Below, piece after piece: positions 33,306-40,130 of a DNA stretch of 59,916 bases. Position 1 is the first letter of the stretch; the number at the start of each line of letters is the position of its first letter. A model generated the notes under the pieces. The model saw only the letters and a program-made list of their open reading frames with translations. It was not told the origin of the DNA and did not search any database. Source of the DNA: Chloroflexota bacterium. GTDB taxonomy: Bacteria > Chloroflexota > Anaerolineae > J102. Both the position numbers and the translations under genes were made by a program. Where the stretch lies: the NCBI GenBank assembly GCA_013151415.1, contig JAADII010000044.1, forward strand, positions 1-59,916. The letters run 5' to 3'.

Positions 33306-35747
33306 ATGCAAAAGCACCGAATTCTGATCTTGTTCAGCGTTTTGGCCGCGATTATGTTGGTGGCTGCGGCATGCGGCGGCGGGGCCGCGCCCACCGAAGC
33401 CCCCGCGCCCACCCAACCTCCGGCCGAGCCGACCAAAGCGCCCGAGCCCACGCCCACGCCCGAGCCGGCCGGCATCGGCGTCGTGCGCGTAGGCACAAAT
33501 GCCGAATATCCGCCGTTCGAATATGTCGATGACAATGGCGACATCGTCGGCTTCGACATCGATCTGATGAACGCCATTGCCGAGGCCGCGGGCTTTGAGG
33601 TGGAATACATCAACACGCGCTGGGACGGCATCTTTGTGGCGCTGGCCAGCGGCGAATTCGACGCCGTCATCTCGGCCGCCACCATCACCGACGAGCGCAA
33701 ACAAACCGTCGATTTCAGCGATCCCTACTTCAACGCCGGCCAATCGCTGGCTGTGAAGAAGGATAGCGGCATCGCCGGAATCGAAGACCTCGCGGGCAAA
33801 CGCGTGGGTGTGCAGTTGGGAACCACCGGCGACATCTGGGCCACCGAAAACCTGCCCGACACCGAAGTTGTGCGCTACGACGAGATCACCCTCGCTTTTC
33901 AGGCCCTGGCCAATGGCGATGTGGATGCAGTCATCAACGATGCGCCCACTTCGGCCGACATCATCAAGGCCAACCCCGAATGGGGCGTGACCATCGTTGG
34001 CGAGCCCTTCACCGAGGAGCTATACGGCATTGCCGTGCGCAAGGATGCGCCTGAAATTTTGGCCGCCATCAACGAAGGTTTGGCCGCGGTGAAAGCGTCG
34101 GGCCAGTACGATGAGATCTTCAACAAGTGGTTTGGCATTCCCGAGGCCGAAGCGCCCGCCGAAGGAGCAATGCCCATTGGCGAAAGCGAAGAAAATGGGC
34201 TGCTTGTCATTCGCGCCGAATGCAAGAACAACAAGGTGAAAGAGATCAAGGCCGTCGATGAAATGACCGTGCAGGTCACCATGTGCAAGCCGGATCCCGC
34301 CTTCCTGGCCAAGATCGCGTTCACGCCTTTCTATATCCAACCGCGTGAATGGATCGAGGAAACCGGCGGCACCGGCAAACTGCTGGAGCAGCCTGTGGGC
34401 ACCGGCCCCTATATGATCGACTCCTGGAACCGCGGCGATAGCATCGTGTTTAAGCGCTTCGATGATTACTGGGGCGAGCCCGCCAAGACCGCGACGCTGG
34501 TCTTCCGCTGGGCCACCGAGGGCGCGGCCCGTTTGCTCGAGCTGCAAGCCGGCACGGCCGACTACATCACCAAACTAAGCCCCGATGATTATGAGACGGT
34601 CAAGAACGATCCCAACCTCCAGTTCTTGCCCGTGCCCAACCCCAACATCATGTATCTGGCCATGACCAACACCTTCGAGCCGTGGAACGATCTGCGCGTG
34701 CGCAAGGCCATGGCCATGGGCATCGACCGCCAGCGCATCATCGACAACTTCTATCCCGACGGCTCTGAAGTGGCGTCGCACTTCACGCCTTGCTCCATTC
34801 CCAATGGTTGCGTGGGCGAACCCTGGTACGACTTCAACCTCGAAGAAGCGAACCGCCTGCTGGATGAAGCCGGCCTTCCGCGCGGCGACGACGGCATTCG
34901 CTTCAAGACCAAGATCTTCTACCGCGACGTGTTCCGCGTGTACCTGCCCGAACCGGGCCTGGTGGCGGTGGAGATTCAGACCCAATTGAAGGAGAACCTG
35001 GGCATCGACGCCGAGGTGGTGGTGATGGAATCGGGCGAGTTCATCGCCGAATCCACGGCCGGCAACCTGGACGGTCTCTACATGCTGGGTTGGGGCGCCG
35101 ACTATCTGCACGTGACCAACTTCCTCGACTTCCACTTCAGCCGCTCGAACCCGCAGTTTGGCGAACCCTTCCCCGAAATCTATGAGGTGCTGGAAAAGGC
35201 CTCCACCATCGCCGATCCTGAAGAAGCCGCGCCGTTGTATGAGCAAGCCAACAACGCCATTCGCGAATTGGTGCCCATGGTGCCTATCGCTCACGGCGCG
35301 CCGGCCGACGCAGCTCGCGCGGATGTGGAGAACGCCAAGGCCGCAGTGCTTGGCCCGCCCGACCTGTGGACCTTCGTGCCCGGCGATCGCGACACCCTCA
35401 TCTACCTGAAAGCGGCCGAGCCCATCAGTCTTTACTGCATGGACGAGACCGACGGCGAATCGCTGGACGCCTGCAAGATGGTGACCGAGGGTCTCTACAA
35501 GTACAACGCGGACGGCGAGGCCGTGCCCACGCTGGCCACCAAGTGCGAGGCCAACGAGGACGCGACGGTCTGGACGTGCTACCTGCGCGAAGGCGTCAAG
35601 TTCCACGATGGCTCCACGTTGGACGCCAACGATGTGGTGCGTTCGTGGGATGCGGGCCTGAACGCGATAAGCCCTTATCATGTGGGCAACACCGGCGCGT
35701 TCGAATATCCGTCCTATCTGTTCGACTCGCTGATGAACGCCGAATAA
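33306..35747 (+). CDS. Fused dual ABC receptor: SBP_bac_3 plus circularly permuted SBP_bac_5
   Basis: An 813-residue lipoprotein: lipobox LVAAAC with Cys23, then a PT/PA-rich stalk to about residue 56. Residues 57-283 are a complete amino-acid-type binding domain (GTNAEYPPFEY; FDAVISAATITDERK; 'NKWFGIPE' at the end). Residues 298-690 match the middle and C-terminal parts of oligopeptide receptors (VDEMTVQVTM, PVGTGPYMIDSW, DDYWG, VRKAMAMGIDR, DEAGLPRG, ending LWTFVPG). The matching N-terminal part (RDTLIYLKAAEPISL, EGLYKYNADGEAVPTLAT, REGVKFHDGSTLDANDVV) follows at 691-813, so the second domain is in permuted order. The start at 33306 was chosen for AAGGAGGAG and the signal peptide. DppB- and DppC-type permeases follow after a hairpin. 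Confidence 0.85.
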   Translation: MQKHRILILFSVLAAIMLVAAACGGGAAPTEAPAPTQPPAEPTKAPEPTPTPEPAGIGVVRVGTNAEYPPFEYVDDNGDIVGFDIDLMNAIAEAAGFEVEYINTRWDGIFVALASGEFDAVISAATITDERKQTVDFSDPYFNAGQSLAVKKDSGIAGIEDLAGKRVGVQLGTTGDIWATENLPDTEVVRYDEITLAFQALANGDVDAVINDAPTSADIIKANPEWGVTIVGEPFTEELYGIAVRKDAPEILAAINEGLAAVKASGQYDEIFNKWFGIPEAEAPAEGAMPIGESEENGLLVIRAECKNNKVKEIKAVDEMTVQVTMCKPDPAFLAKIAFTPFYIQPREWIEETGGTGKLLEQPVGTGPYMIDSWNRGDSIVFKRFDDYWGEPAKTATLVFRWATEGAARLLELQAGTADYITKLSPDDYETVKNDPNLQFLPVPNPNIMYLAMTNTFEPWNDLRVRKAMAMGIDRQRIIDNFYPDGSEVASHFTPCSIPNGCVGEPWYDFNLEEANRLLDEAGLPRGDDGIRFKTKIFYRDVFRVYLPEPGLVAVEIQTQLKENLGIDAEVVVMESGEFIAESTAGNLDGLYMLGWGADYLHVTNFLDFHFSRSNPQFGEPFPEIYEVLEKASTIADPEEAAPLYEQANNAIRELVPMVPIAHGAPADAARADVENAKAAVLGPPDLWTFVPGDRDTLIYLKAAEPISLYCMDETDGESLDACKMVTEGLYKYNADGEAVPTLATKCEANEDATVWTCYLREGVKFHDGSTLDANDVVRSWDAGLNAISPYHVGNTGAFEYPSYLFDSLMNAE

Positions 35748-35975: not shown

Positions 35976-37052
35976 ATGCTCAAATATACGATTCGTCGAA
36001 TTCTCTCCTCTTTGCCGGTGCTTTTTGGCGTTCTTGTGGTGACATTCACGCTGGCGCGAGTGATTCCTGGGGATCCGTGCAAGGCCATGTTGGGCGAGAA
36101 AGCGACGCAAGAGGTGTGCGATCGTTTCATGGAGGAAAAGGGGTTGAACGATCCCATACCTCAACAGTTCGCGGCCTATCTAAAGGACCTGGCGCGCGGT
36201 GATTTGGGCACCTCGATCCGGTTTCGGCGCCCTATCACCCAAATCTTGGTGGAGCGATTGCCCACCACCATCGAGCTGGGCTTTGCAGGATTGTTTCTCG
36301 CTTCGCTGATAGGCATACCTCTGGGCATCATATCGGCCTTGCGCCATAATTCGCCCATCGATCTGGCCACGATGGTGGGCGCCAATATTGGGGTTTCGAT
36401 GCCTGTCTTTTGGTTGGGCCTGATGTTGGCCTATGTTTTTGCTCTTGTGCTCAAGGACACCCCGCTTTGGTTGCCGCCATCTGGTCGGCTGACCGCGGGC
36501 GTGGTGTCGGTTCCATTTTACGAGGTGTGGGGTTGGGTGGCCGATGGCGAGGAGGCGCCCCGACTTCTTCAATTTATCGCCAATCATTACATTTTCAATT
36601 CCTTCATCACCGGACAATGGGACGTGCTCAAAGACGCCATCCGGCATTTGATTTTACCTTCGGTGGCGTTGGCCACCATCCCGATGGCCGTCATCGCCCG
36701 CATGACGCGTTCGAGCATGTTGCAAGTGACGAACATGGACTATGTGCGCACCGCTCGAGCCAAAGGTCTACGCGAAAGCGCAGTGGTGATGCGACACGCT
36801 TTCCGCAATGCGCTCTTGCCCATCGTCACCATCATTGGCCTGCAGTTGGGCATTCTCTTCAGTGGGGCCATTCTCACCGAGACCATCTTTAGCCTGGCTG
36901 GGGTGGGGCGAAGCTTGTTCGAAGCCATCACCGCGCGCGATTTCCCCATCATTCAGGGCTTCACTGTGGTCATCGCCATCGGCTACATTATTGTCAACTT
37001 GATCGTGGATCTCTCCTACGGCTTCCTGGACCCGCGCATTCGGCTCGATTGA
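35976..37052 (+). CDS. Dipeptide/oligopeptide ABC permease, DppB type
   Basis: A 358-residue inner-membrane subunit of a peptide/nickel-class ABC importer. It has the N-terminal 'YTIRRILSSLPVLFGVLVVTFTLAR' helix, the BPD_transp_1 core and the EAA loop (DYVRTARAKGLRESAVVMRHAFRNA-like), which contacts an ATPase. The C-terminus 'LVDLSYGFLDPRIRLD' is typical of DppB. A segment between helices 3 and 4 (about 170-215) is longer than usual. The ATG lacks a clear ribosome binding site. It pairs with the DppC-type gene 51 bases downstream; the ATPases are not in the window. Confidence 0.9.
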   Translation: MLKYTIRRILSSLPVLFGVLVVTFTLARVIPGDPCKAMLGEKATQEVCDRFMEEKGLNDPIPQQFAAYLKDLARGDLGTSIRFRRPITQILVERLPTTIELGFAGLFLASLIGIPLGIISALRHNSPIDLATMVGANIGVSMPVFWLGLMLAYVFALVLKDTPLWLPPSGRLTAGVVSVPFYEVWGWVADGEEAPRLLQFIANHYIFNSFITGQWDVLKDAIRHLILPSVALATIPMAVIARMTRSSMLQVTNMDYVRTARAKGLRESAVVMRHAFRNALLPIVTIIGLQLGILFSGAILTETIFSLAGVGRSLFEAITARDFPIIQGFTVVIAIGYIIVNLIVDLSYGFLDPRIRLD

Positions 37053-37103
37053 TCAACGGTCCAATCGCTCCACGCAATACGAAACACGCAATCATCCTCA
37101 TCC

Positions 37104-38048
37104 ATGAGCACCAAACCCGAACCGACTTCCGACGTCAACATCGAAATCACCAAACACCGCTCTGAAGGGCCATGGCGCATTGCATTACGTCGTCTTCTTC
37201 GGCAACGCTCTGGCATTGCGGGCATGATCATATTGGGCTTTTTGCTGTTTGCAGCCATCTTTGCTCCGGTCATCGCGCCTTATGATCCCAACGAAGTGCT
37301 CATCGGCAAGGAGCCGGTGAAGAAACGCGCCAAGCCTTGCATTCATTTGCTCGGATGCCCCGAAGATCAGCCGCAGCACATCATGGGCATCGATGGCAAT
37401 GTGCGCGATGAGTTCAGCCGCATCATTTATGGCGCTCGCATTTCTTTGCGCGTGGGGTTTCTCACCATTGGCTTCGCCATCATTGTGGGAACGATTTTGG
37501 GCACGATTGCAGGTTATGCTGGGGGGTGGGTTTCCAATGTCATTATGCGCGTGCTCGATGTGTTGTTGGCGTTTCCATTCTTGCTATTGGCCATCGCCAT
37601 CGTGGCCGTGCTCGGGCCGGGCCTGATCAACGCCATGCTGGCCATCGCCATTATCAACATACCCGTGTACGCGCGCGTCAGCCGCGCGAGCGTGCTGGCG
37701 GTGAAAGAAGACGAGTATGTAACTGCGGCCCGCGCGATCGGCGCTTCGCCAACTCGCATCATCACTCAACATATCCTGCCCAACTCTATTCCCCCGCTCA
37801 TTGTGCTGGCCACGCTGGGCATCGGCACCGCAATTCTCGAGACCGCGGCCCTTTCATTCTTGGGGCTGGGCGCGCAGCCGCCAGACCCCGAATGGGGCGC
37901 TATGTTGGCCAGCGAGCGCAACCAGGTGTTCAGCGCGCCCCATCTCGTGTTCTTTCCCGGCCTCGCCATCATGCTCACGGTGCTCGGCTTCAATCTGCTC
38001 GGCGACGGCCTACGCGACGCGCTCGACCCTCGCGTGCGGATCGACTGA
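37104..38048 (+). CDS. Dipeptide/oligopeptide ABC permease, DppC type
   Basis: A 314-residue partner of the preceding permease. An N-terminal cytoplasmic stretch leads to a helix 'GIAGMIILGFLLFAAIFAPVIAPYDPNE', the usual DppC/OppC start, followed by a periplasmic segment with two cysteines. The core then has the EAA loop 'EYVTAARAIGASPTRIITQHILPN' and the conserved 'ETAALSFLGLGAQPPDPEWGAML'. It ends DPRVRID like most DppC proteins. It should form the transport pore with the DppB-type subunit and accept substrate from an SBP_bac_5 receptor, which here would be the second half of the fused receptor. Confidence 0.9.
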   Translation: MSTKPEPTSDVNIEITKHRSEGPWRIALRRLLRQRSGIAGMIILGFLLFAAIFAPVIAPYDPNEVLIGKEPVKKRAKPCIHLLGCPEDQPQHIMGIDGNVRDEFSRIIYGARISLRVGFLTIGFAIIVGTILGTIAGYAGGWVSNVIMRVLDVLLAFPFLLLAIAIVAVLGPGLINAMLAIAIINIPVYARVSRASVLAVKEDEYVTAARAIGASPTRIITQHILPNSIPPLIVLATLGIGTAILETAALSFLGLGAQPPDPEWGAMLASERNQVFSAPHLVFFPGLAIMLTVLGFNLLGDGLRDALDPRVRID

Positions 38049-38133: not shown

Positions 38134-38652
38134 ATGACAAAACGAATCGTCACTCTCAAAGGCGAGCCCTTTTCCGAAGTGCTAGGCGAACCGGTGCAGG
38201 TGGGCCAGCCCGCGCCCTCGGCGGCCGGTCGCACCAACGGATTCAGCACCGCGACGTTCGACGTGATCAAAGACGCCGAAGGCAAAATACGCGTGCTCAA
38301 TTTCGTGCCCAGTCTCAATACGGGCATCTGCGACGCCCAAACGCGACGTTTCAACGAGGCGCTTAGCCGCGACGACCGCGTGGCCGTGATCACCATTAGC
38401 GCGGATCTGCCCTTTATGCAAGAAAAGTGGTGCGGCGCGGCCGGACTGGACGACGCGATCATGGTTTCCGACCATTACGACATGGCCATTGGCAATGCCT
38501 ACGGAACGCATATCAAAGCCAACCGTCTGGAGCAACGCGCGGTCATTGTTGTGGACGCCGAGGGCATAGTGCGCTATGCGGAATACTGCCCCGAAATCGC
38601 CATGCATCCGGATTACGACGCAGCCTTGGCCGCCGTCAAAGCGCTGTTATAG
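38134..38652 (+). CDS. tpx: Thiol peroxidase (Tpx/peroxiredoxin family)
   Basis: A 172-residue cytoplasmic peroxiredoxin that reduces peroxides with thioredoxin-type donors. The peroxidatic cysteine lies in 'VPSLNTGICDAQTRRFNEAL', the classic Tpx motif, and the resolving cysteine in 'QEKWCGAAG', with the conserved Arg in the distal part. AGGAGG precedes the ATG at good spacing. A perfect 16-bp hairpin terminator follows. Its position between two ABC permease loci is unusual; it is probably an independent or read-through unit and not a transporter part. Confidence 0.9.
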   Translation: MTKRIVTLKGEPFSEVLGEPVQVGQPAPSAAGRTNGFSTATFDVIKDAEGKIRVLNFVPSLNTGICDAQTRRFNEALSRDDRVAVITISADLPFMQEKWCGAAGLDDAIMVSDHYDMAIGNAYGTHIKANRLEQRAVIVVDAEGIVRYAEYCPEIAMHPDYDAALAAVKALL

Positions 38653-38801: not shown

Positions 38802-40130
38802 ATGAGCGAGCAGCCGCCCTCAAGCCCTCTTACGCCCGACGTGCGCGCGCGTCATCGCGGTCGCATGGGCATGGCCATTCCTTGGGAAAACATTCCCTGG
38901 TGGGCCATCATCATCCTTATTGTTGGCGTCATTGTCGGCTTTTCCATTTTCACCAACGTTTATTATCGCGATGCACTCTATTTCATCTTTGATTTTCCCT
39001 GGAATCGCCAGGCCGTGGCGCGCGTCAAGGCCGCCGACATTGGGCCCAACGGCGAATGGTCTTATACGTTCACCAAGCCGTTAGAGCCGGGAAAGTACAC
39101 CTTATATGGCGAATATTTCAATGAAAAGGGCGAGTCTATTGGCCGGGGGGACGTATACATTGTGCGCGTGCCCAATGGAACCGAGGCCGTAGAAGAGGAG
39201 AGCTTACAACCATCGGAAGAGGTCATCGTCTTGGAGACCAGCACGCCCTCCCTCTCCGGGATCGCGCCGCCCGGAACCGTGGAAGTGCGCATCATCGATG
39301 ACTTTCGCAACCAACCCTTGCGCGTGGCCGAACGCATTTGGAACGCGAAAGGCGTGGTGATGACGCTCAAAGTCACTCTGATCGCCTTTGTGTTGGCCCT
39401 CATCATCGGTCTCATATTCGGCCTCATGCGCGTCTCCAGTCGTTCTCCCAACCTTTTCATCGGCGCGCCCAAACGCCTGTTGGTTGGCTTGATCATCGCC
39501 ATCGCGTTGATCTACTGGCGAGAGGAATGGCGCGAGCCGCGCGCGATCATCTCGGTGGTGGCGTTGACCGAAGCAACGCTCTTTTTGCTCCCGGCCCTGC
39601 CTTACACTATTTCCACCCTTTATGTGGAAATCATTCGCGGGGTGCCCATGTTGGTGATCATTCTCTACATGGGCTTTGCAATCACGCCTGCGCTGCGCGA
39701 TGCAACCGGCGGCAATGTGGATTTAGGCGGTTTGCCCGCGGCTGTTATTGGTTTGGGGTTTGGTTATGGCGCGTATCTGGCCGAAGTGTTTCGCGCGGGC
39801 ATCGAATCCATTCCCAAGGGACAGATGGAGGCCGCTCGCTCTTTGGGCATGACGTATATGCAGGCCATGCGACTTGTCATTTTACCGCAAGCCATTCGCC
39901 TTATCTTGCCTCCTTTGGGCAACGATTTCATAGCCATGCTCAAAGACTCTTCGCTAATTTCTGTCATTGCCTTGCCCGAAGTGCTGCAACAGGGTCGTCT
40001 GTGGATCTCGCGCAACTTCCGGGCTTTCGAGGGGTACAATTCGGTGATGATGGTCTATCTGGTGTTAACCCTCTCTTTGTCGTTGCTGGTGCGCGCCATC
40101 GAACGACGCTCACGACTGCCGAGCAAGTGA
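38802..40130 (+). CDS. Polar amino acid ABC permease with extracytoplasmic insert
   Basis: A 442-residue permease, about twice the usual 220-270 of the HisM/GlnP family. After a cytoplasmic N-terminus and helix (about 40-62) comes an extracytoplasmic beta-rich domain (about 66-170). Its core 'GEWSYTFTKPLEPGKYTLYGEYF' resembles bacterial Ig-like repeats. The permease core begins near 183 (MTLKVTLIAFVLALIIGL) and contains 'EIIRGVPMLVIILYMGF' and the EAA loop 'EVFRAGIESIPKGQMEAARSLGM'. A further insertion (about 225-265) adds one or two helices. AGGAGA precedes the ATG. The SBP_bac_3 half of the upstream fused receptor is its natural partner; no ATPase gene adjoins. Confidence 0.85.
   Translation: MSEQPPSSPLTPDVRARHRGRMGMAIPWENIPWWAIIILIVGVIVGFSIFTNVYYRDALYFIFDFPWNRQAVARVKAADIGPNGEWSYTFTKPLEPGKYTLYGEYFNEKGESIGRGDVYIVRVPNGTEAVEEESLQPSEEVIVLETSTPSLSGIAPPGTVEVRIIDDFRNQPLRVAERIWNAKGVVMTLKVTLIAFVLALIIGLIFGLMRVSSRSPNLFIGAPKRLLVGLIIAIALIYWREEWREPRAIISVVALTEATLFLLPALPYTISTLYVEIIRGVPMLVIILYMGFAITPALRDATGGNVDLGGLPAAVIGLGFGYGAYLAEVFRAGIESIPKGQMEAARSLGMTYMQAMRLVILPQAIRLILPPLGNDFIAMLKDSSLISVIALPEVLQQGRLWISRNFRAFEGYNSVMMVYLVLTLSLSLLVRAIERRSRLPSK

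Follow-up and report, generated by a model that had tools for sequence, protein, structure and literature searches.

A Chloroflexota lipoprotein joining an amino-acid-type receptor to a circularly permuted oligopeptide-type receptor, probably serving two ABC importers

Introduction

Tp0684 (MglB-2) of Treponema is a naturally permuted sugar-binding protein, for which the label 'Cluster Bc' has been proposed (PMC4990184). Another arrangement is found in GlnPQ, in which tandem binding domains (SBD1-SBD2), both of the amino-acid class, are fused to one permease and act largely independently (PMC8025302). In this study, we analyzed a window of DNA (that is, the whole stretch under analysis, 59,916 nucleotides from a Chloroflexota bacterium; GenBank assembly GCA_013151415.1, contig JAADII010000044.1) encoding a lipoprotein in which an SBP_bac_3 domain (SBP3) is followed by a circularly permuted SBP_bac_5 domain (SBP5).

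Like Tp0684, this protein is a natural circular permutation of an ABC receptor that has been kept as a family and is tethered to the membrane; however, Tp0684 is of the type I sugar SBP class, and no fusion to another receptor is described for it. The permuted domain found here is an SBP_bac_5 domain that matches DppA, and it therefore falls outside Cluster Bc, which comprises a permuted type I sugar-binding fold. As in GlnPQ, two receptors share one chain and are joined by a flexible linker (14 residues in GlnP). Whereas both GlnPQ receptors are SBP_bac_3 domains with one fused permease, here two receptor classes are accompanied by two permease types encoded separately: the receptor ORF ends at 35747 and the permeases are separate ORFs, so there is no GlnPQ-like fusion of binding domain and permease. 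With DppA/HbpA (SBP_bac_5, cluster C), the permuted half shares the fold, about 25-28% identity, both peptide-terminus residues and the link to an OppB/OppC-type permease, but its chain is permuted at DppA 116|123 and fused behind another receptor. The other half has the whole domain, the PAAT permease partner and the fold (Z about 27) in common with AncQR/GlnH/LAO (SBP_bac_3), yet it forms the N-terminal half of a larger, two-domain receptor.

No permuted SBP5 chain was seen in PDB searches, and a literature search, with most subscription journals outside it, found no papers on permuted SBP5 or on SBP3-SBP5 fusion. The permuted SBP5 family, which is widespread in Chloroflexota, and its SBP3 fusion are apparently undescribed. 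They add a second receptor class to the natural circular permutations of ABC binding proteins, and unite receptors of different classes on a single anchor, with genes for both types of permease in the operon.

The receptor gene and its domains

The receptor gene, its parts and the permease genes downstream are listed in Table 1. Its ATG codon is preceded by a strong ribosome-binding site, AAAGGAGGAG, at about 33291, and residues 3-21 of the signal peptide form a helix in the AlphaFold model. In the Pfam scan, SBP_bac_3 (PF00497) was matched over its full length (residues 60-277, profile positions 1-131 of 132) with 165.4 bits and an E value of 7e-49, above the gathering score. The closest match of this half was AncQR, a reconstructed glutamine/arginine-type receptor (E 6e-63); alignment to AncQR revealed that the Arg and Asp by which this family holds an amino acid are retained. 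SBP_bac_5 (PF00496) was also detected above its gathering score (271.4 bits, E 2e-80) with complete domain content, but in two stretches, the larger of which places residues 296-615 on profile positions 61-365. R544 and D599 are invariant in 55 sequences; their DppA counterparts, R355 and D408, hold the carboxylate and the amine of the ligand, the two peptide termini.

Eight cysteines lie in the permuted domain (residues 306, 327, 496, 502, 711, 723, 747 and 758; window positions 34221-35579), and several of them are conserved in the family, suggesting possible disulfides.

Table 1. Coordinates of the receptor, its parts and the downstream genes in the window
Feature	Position	Strand	Remarks
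Receptor ORF, 813 aa	33306-35747	+	lipoprotein: SBP_bac_3, then permuted SBP_bac_5
Signal peptide, residues 1-23, ending at lipid-modified Cys23	33306..33374	+	sequence MQKHRILILFSVLAAIMLVAAAC
Pro/Ala-rich membrane tether, residues 24-56	33375..33473	+	pLDDT <50 for 23-54
SBP_bac_3 domain, residues 57-279, amino-acid receptor	33474..34142	+	Pfam, AncQR match, structural comparison
Flexible inter-receptor linker, residues 280-297	34143..34196	+	pLDDT <50 at 279-288
Permuted SBP_bac_5, canonical C-terminal part placed first, residues 298-690	34197..35375	+	matches DppA 123-504
Arg544, equivalent of DppA Arg355 (ligand carboxylate)	34935..34937	+	alignment to DppA
Asp599, equivalent of DppA Asp408 (ligand amine)	35100..35102	+	alignment to DppA
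Permuted SBP_bac_5, canonical N-terminal part placed last, residues 691-813	35376..35744	+	matches DppA 2-116
OppB-type permease	35976..37052	+	BPD_transp_1 + BPD_transp_1_N; directly after the receptor in nearly all relatives
OppC-type permease	37104..38048	+	BPD_transp_1 + OppC_N
Peroxiredoxin-like (Tpx-type) gene	38134..38652	+	named by sequence only
PAAT (amino-acid class) permease with long N-terminal extension	38802..40130	+	BPD_transp_1 at 267-438

Circular permutation of the SBP_bac_5 half

The canonical N-to-C order of SBP_bac_5 is replaced here by a permuted variant, in which the C-part stands ahead of the N-part. When the family profile was compared with the PDB, the C-part fell on residues 123-504 and the N-part on residues 2-116 of 1dpp, in the opposite order (among the DppA-type chains shown). 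The last 122 residues of the protein (segment 691-813), searched alone, matched solely the N-terminal ends of solved SBP5 chains among the PDB matches shown. Swapping the two segments back raised the global alignment score against all seven canonical SBP5 proteins compared (e.g., from 318 to 543 and from 289 to 566). The break point lies in a loop between DppA residues 116 and 123, and the old C- and N-termini are linked via a short turn (PPDLWTFVPGDRDTLIYL in the window protein and SPLGNEYFAVMDPGGRSTFVWM in Bellilinea). Each segment occurs once, with one N match and one C match in every permuted gene. Pfam and NCBIfam score the permuted proteins as ordinary SBP5, so the rearrangement is hidden from such annotation.

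An earlier note on this DNA, made from the sequence alone, had read the gene as a fusion of an amino-acid-type SBP to a circularly permuted SBP_bac_5. This reading is borne out by Pfam, by the profile-to-DppA alignment and by an order that is conserved in relatives; the single copy of each segment and the improved alignment in swapped order also turned out as the note had proposed, and our positions for the domain boundary (about 298) and the join (about 690) differ from those of the note by no more than a few residues.

We further modeled the full protein with AlphaFold, using an alignment of 55 sequences. The model (mean pLDDT 89.7) contains two compact domains, with low confidence just in the tether and the linker, and its pTM of 0.66 is in keeping with two bodies whose linker is flexible. 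Modeled alone, the permuted domain reached a pLDDT of 93.1 and a pTM of 0.90, and segment 691-813 has a pLDDT of about 90 or above; the domain is thus predicted to be one rigid body that includes the moved segment, the closed second domain that the note had called for. In structural comparisons, 385 residues within 291-694 superimpose on DppA-type receptors with Z 30 and an rmsd of 2.2-2.4, and residues 58-279 on glutamine- and lysine/arginine/ornithine (LAO)-binding proteins (Z about 27). Segment 691-813 would occupy the place of DppA 1-116, as follows from its sequence and the compactness of the model, the structural alignments shown ending near residue 694. The permutation would keep the fold and the binding cleft, the chain ends being merely relocated to the loop at DppA 116|123. 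With termini away from the usual site, the permuted SBP5 family represents a natural biosensor scaffold.

A family of permuted receptors with exchangeable modules

A total of 105 distinct permuted SBP5 sequences were recovered, comprising 62 unfused proteins, 35 fused to SBP_bac_3, seven fused to a LivK-type domain and one fused to both. They are distributed across Chloroflexota, in Bellilinea caldifistulae and in Acidimicrobiia (including the record of Ilumatobacter nonamiensis), and occur also in records labelled Devosia and Thermoanaerobacterales. Matches at E up to 1e-60, a count that includes SBP3-only matches, were present in 221 of the 396 genomes of the class. A plasmid-borne Azospirillum match over residues 311-801 proved to be canonical on inspection.

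The earlier note's picture of the permutation as a one-off event of this gene did not hold, since the family is large, mostly unfused and has switched partners many times: on the tree of permuted sequences, SBP3 was gained or lost 14 times or more. Accordingly, a duplication at the time of fusion is not supported as a one-off origin; a tandem-duplication step by itself is plausible.

Several close relatives carry the same SBP3 domain (about 75-84% identical) fused to a canonical SBP5, and the operon around it has the same layout, including the Tpx and PAAT permease genes. In genus g5, one genome with the permuted form (L101) and two genomes with the canonical form (L124 and L125) share 81-85% DNA identity from the upstream genes through SBP3 up to the linker, where the match ends. 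When the window was compared with a canonical g5 operon, the alignment resumed over the Tpx gene and the PAAT permease. In the SBP3 tree, sequences from permuted and canonical fusions interleave. Within genus g5, the SBP5 half has thus been swapped between permuted and canonical versions with the break at the linker, and SBP5-OppB-OppC behaves as a cassette. A first tree, in which canonical g5 sequences were nested among permuted ones, had raised repeated permutations or a reversal to the canonical form in g5; an AU test, however, did not reject a tree that unites all permuted sequences (p 0.63), which also had the higher likelihood, and the permutation may therefore have arisen just once.

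As to where this origin lay, the permutation may have arisen within an SBP3 fusion, with the unfused permuted proteins being later losses; we regard this scenario, which is compatible with a two-importer receptor, as possible but doubtful. The deepest permuted branches are mostly SBP3-fused, and one unfused sequence (L048) nests among fused ones; on the other hand, the root and long branches of the tree are uncertain, the unfused forms are the majority and extend to other phyla, and L132 encodes SBP3 and permuted SBP5 in two adjoining genes, both of which begin with a signal peptide. Another picture, more speculative and in our judgment rather unlikely, is a plug-in system in which Chloroflexota lipoproteins combine as many as three receptors (LivK, SBP3 and permuted SBP5, or two LivK and permuted SBP5). 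The SBP5-OppB-OppC cassette, flanked by an SBP3 head that stays fixed and by the PAAT permease of this head, would be exchanged, and the permuted topology would be favored as suiting SBP5 to the C-terminal place on a shared tether.

Larger receptors were also observed. One locus (L133:4621-8016, G035) encodes a triple receptor of 1132 aa with Peripla_BP_6 (LivK), SBP_bac_3 and permuted SBP_bac_5 domains, followed by OppB, OppC, a PAAT permease and a GlnQ-type ATPase. In L171 (5269-9276 and 1906-4773, G173) and in L084, neighboring receptors (956 and 1336 aa) have one LivK domain and two LivK domains ahead of the permuted SBP5, and an unfused SBP3 gene and a PAAT permease lie upstream. The scanned neighbors of three LivK-fusion loci, where Liv permeases had been considered, were unrelated genes. 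Another member of the class has an SBP3-SBP3 tandem fusion beside a PAAT permease (L136:6862-8418, G034). A LysM fusion in L135, which seemed possible by eye, was absent in the Pfam scan.

Operon content and co-divergence with permeases

Where the sequence downstream sufficed, 27 of 33 SBP3-fused genes were followed by a PAAT permease, against just one of the 46 permuted genes without a fusion (Fisher p 2.7e-14, uncorrected for relatedness). The operon of this lone unfused gene (L139) contains a stand-alone SBP_bac_3 gene; conversely, a few SBP3-fused genes (L157-L159, L146 and L134) have no PAAT permease nearby. In L146 (4075-6781, G100), the genes after the fusion of SBP3 and permuted SBP5 are not OppBC but two BPD_transp_2 permeases (branched-chain/ribose type). 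Several fused operons, permuted or canonical, have a Tpx-like gene between OppC and the PAAT permease. About 265 residues precede the Pfam domain in the PAAT permease of the window, and the extension is also long in an OppC-type permease (L182:9879-11213); these extensions may hold extracytoplasmic domains.

Pairwise divergence was then compared across 27 operons, a thinned set of 19 diverse operons and a permuted-only set of 22. Across the 27 operons, the SBP5 half correlated with OppB (r 0.86) and OppC (r 0.83) and the SBP3 half with the PAAT permease (r 0.76), whereas the two halves correlated poorly with each other (r 0.23). In the thinned set, the values were 0.81 (SBP5-OppB), 0.75 (SBP5-OppC), 0.71 (SBP3-PAAT) and 0.01 (SBP3-SBP5), and in the permuted-only set 0.85, 0.75, 0.78 and 0.48, respectively. 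Adjacency could have inflated the SBP5-OppB correlation via shared recombination tracts. DNA distance does not explain the pattern, because SBP3 and SBP5 share a gene but hardly correlate, whereas SBP3 correlates with the PAAT permease at a distance of about 5 kb. Since the halves co-diverge with different permeases and hardly with each other, each half most likely serves its own permease; with their exchange at the linker, these receptors offer a natural test of receptor-permease pairing.

Putative function and alternative explanations

We consider it probable that the protein acts as a dual receptor, in which a single lipid anchor holds the binding domains of two ABC importers. The SBP_bac_3 half would bind an amino acid and hand it over to the PAAT permease, and the permuted DppA-like half would bind a dipeptide or similar short peptide and hand it over to OppB/OppC (35976-38048). 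Dipeptides or similar ligands are most likely for the permuted half, as R544 and D599 match R355 and D408 of DppA in the alignment. The service to two transporter classes suggested in the earlier note is supported, as a putative function, by the operon content and the domain-specific co-divergence.

Alternatively, both domains might feed one translocator, OppBC, in a GlnPQ-like manner, the PAAT permease being part of another system. Tandem binding domains that share, and compete for, one permease are known from GlnPQ/GlnP (PMC8025302), and OppB lies directly 3' of the receptor in almost all relatives. This arrangement is nevertheless improbable here: the SBP3 half tracks the PAAT permease, not OppB (r 0.36) or OppC (r 0.18), and the presence of a PAAT permease goes with SBP3 fusion. 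In addition, the permease families with which SBP3 and SBP5 receptors work are normally different.

SBPs can also act in signalling, and the window operon lacks an ATPase gene, so the SBP3 half might be a sensor or a scavenging accessory instead of a transport receptor. We judge this very unlikely, given that most relatives have a PAAT permease in the operon, in many cases followed by a GlnQ-type ATPase, and that no sensor gene was noticed beside the receptor.

Finally, although the window comes from a draft genome of 197 contigs, the possibility that misassembly, an additional SBP5 copy cut short or chance mimics the permuted order can be dismissed, because one order is kept in 105 distinct sequences from independent assemblies, including the isolate records of Bellilinea caldifistulae GOMI-1 and Ilumatobacter nonamiensis, each gene has exactly one N and one C match, and the domain is predicted to fold as one body.

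For the dual receptor that we favor, the ATPases of both permeases probably act in trans, since the window operon has none and GlnQ-like and OppD/F genes are present on other contigs of the genome. Unfused permuted relatives often carry OppD/F. An OppD/F pair on contig C161, considered as an orphan partner of the window operon, has its own OppBC and an 866-aa receptor-like protein. The same genome also encodes a 740-aa protein (L184:5497-7719, G000:C185) in which WD40-like repeats, recognized by eye, are joined to a PAAT permease; it adjoins a GlnQ-type ATPase, with no receptor gene seen nearby.
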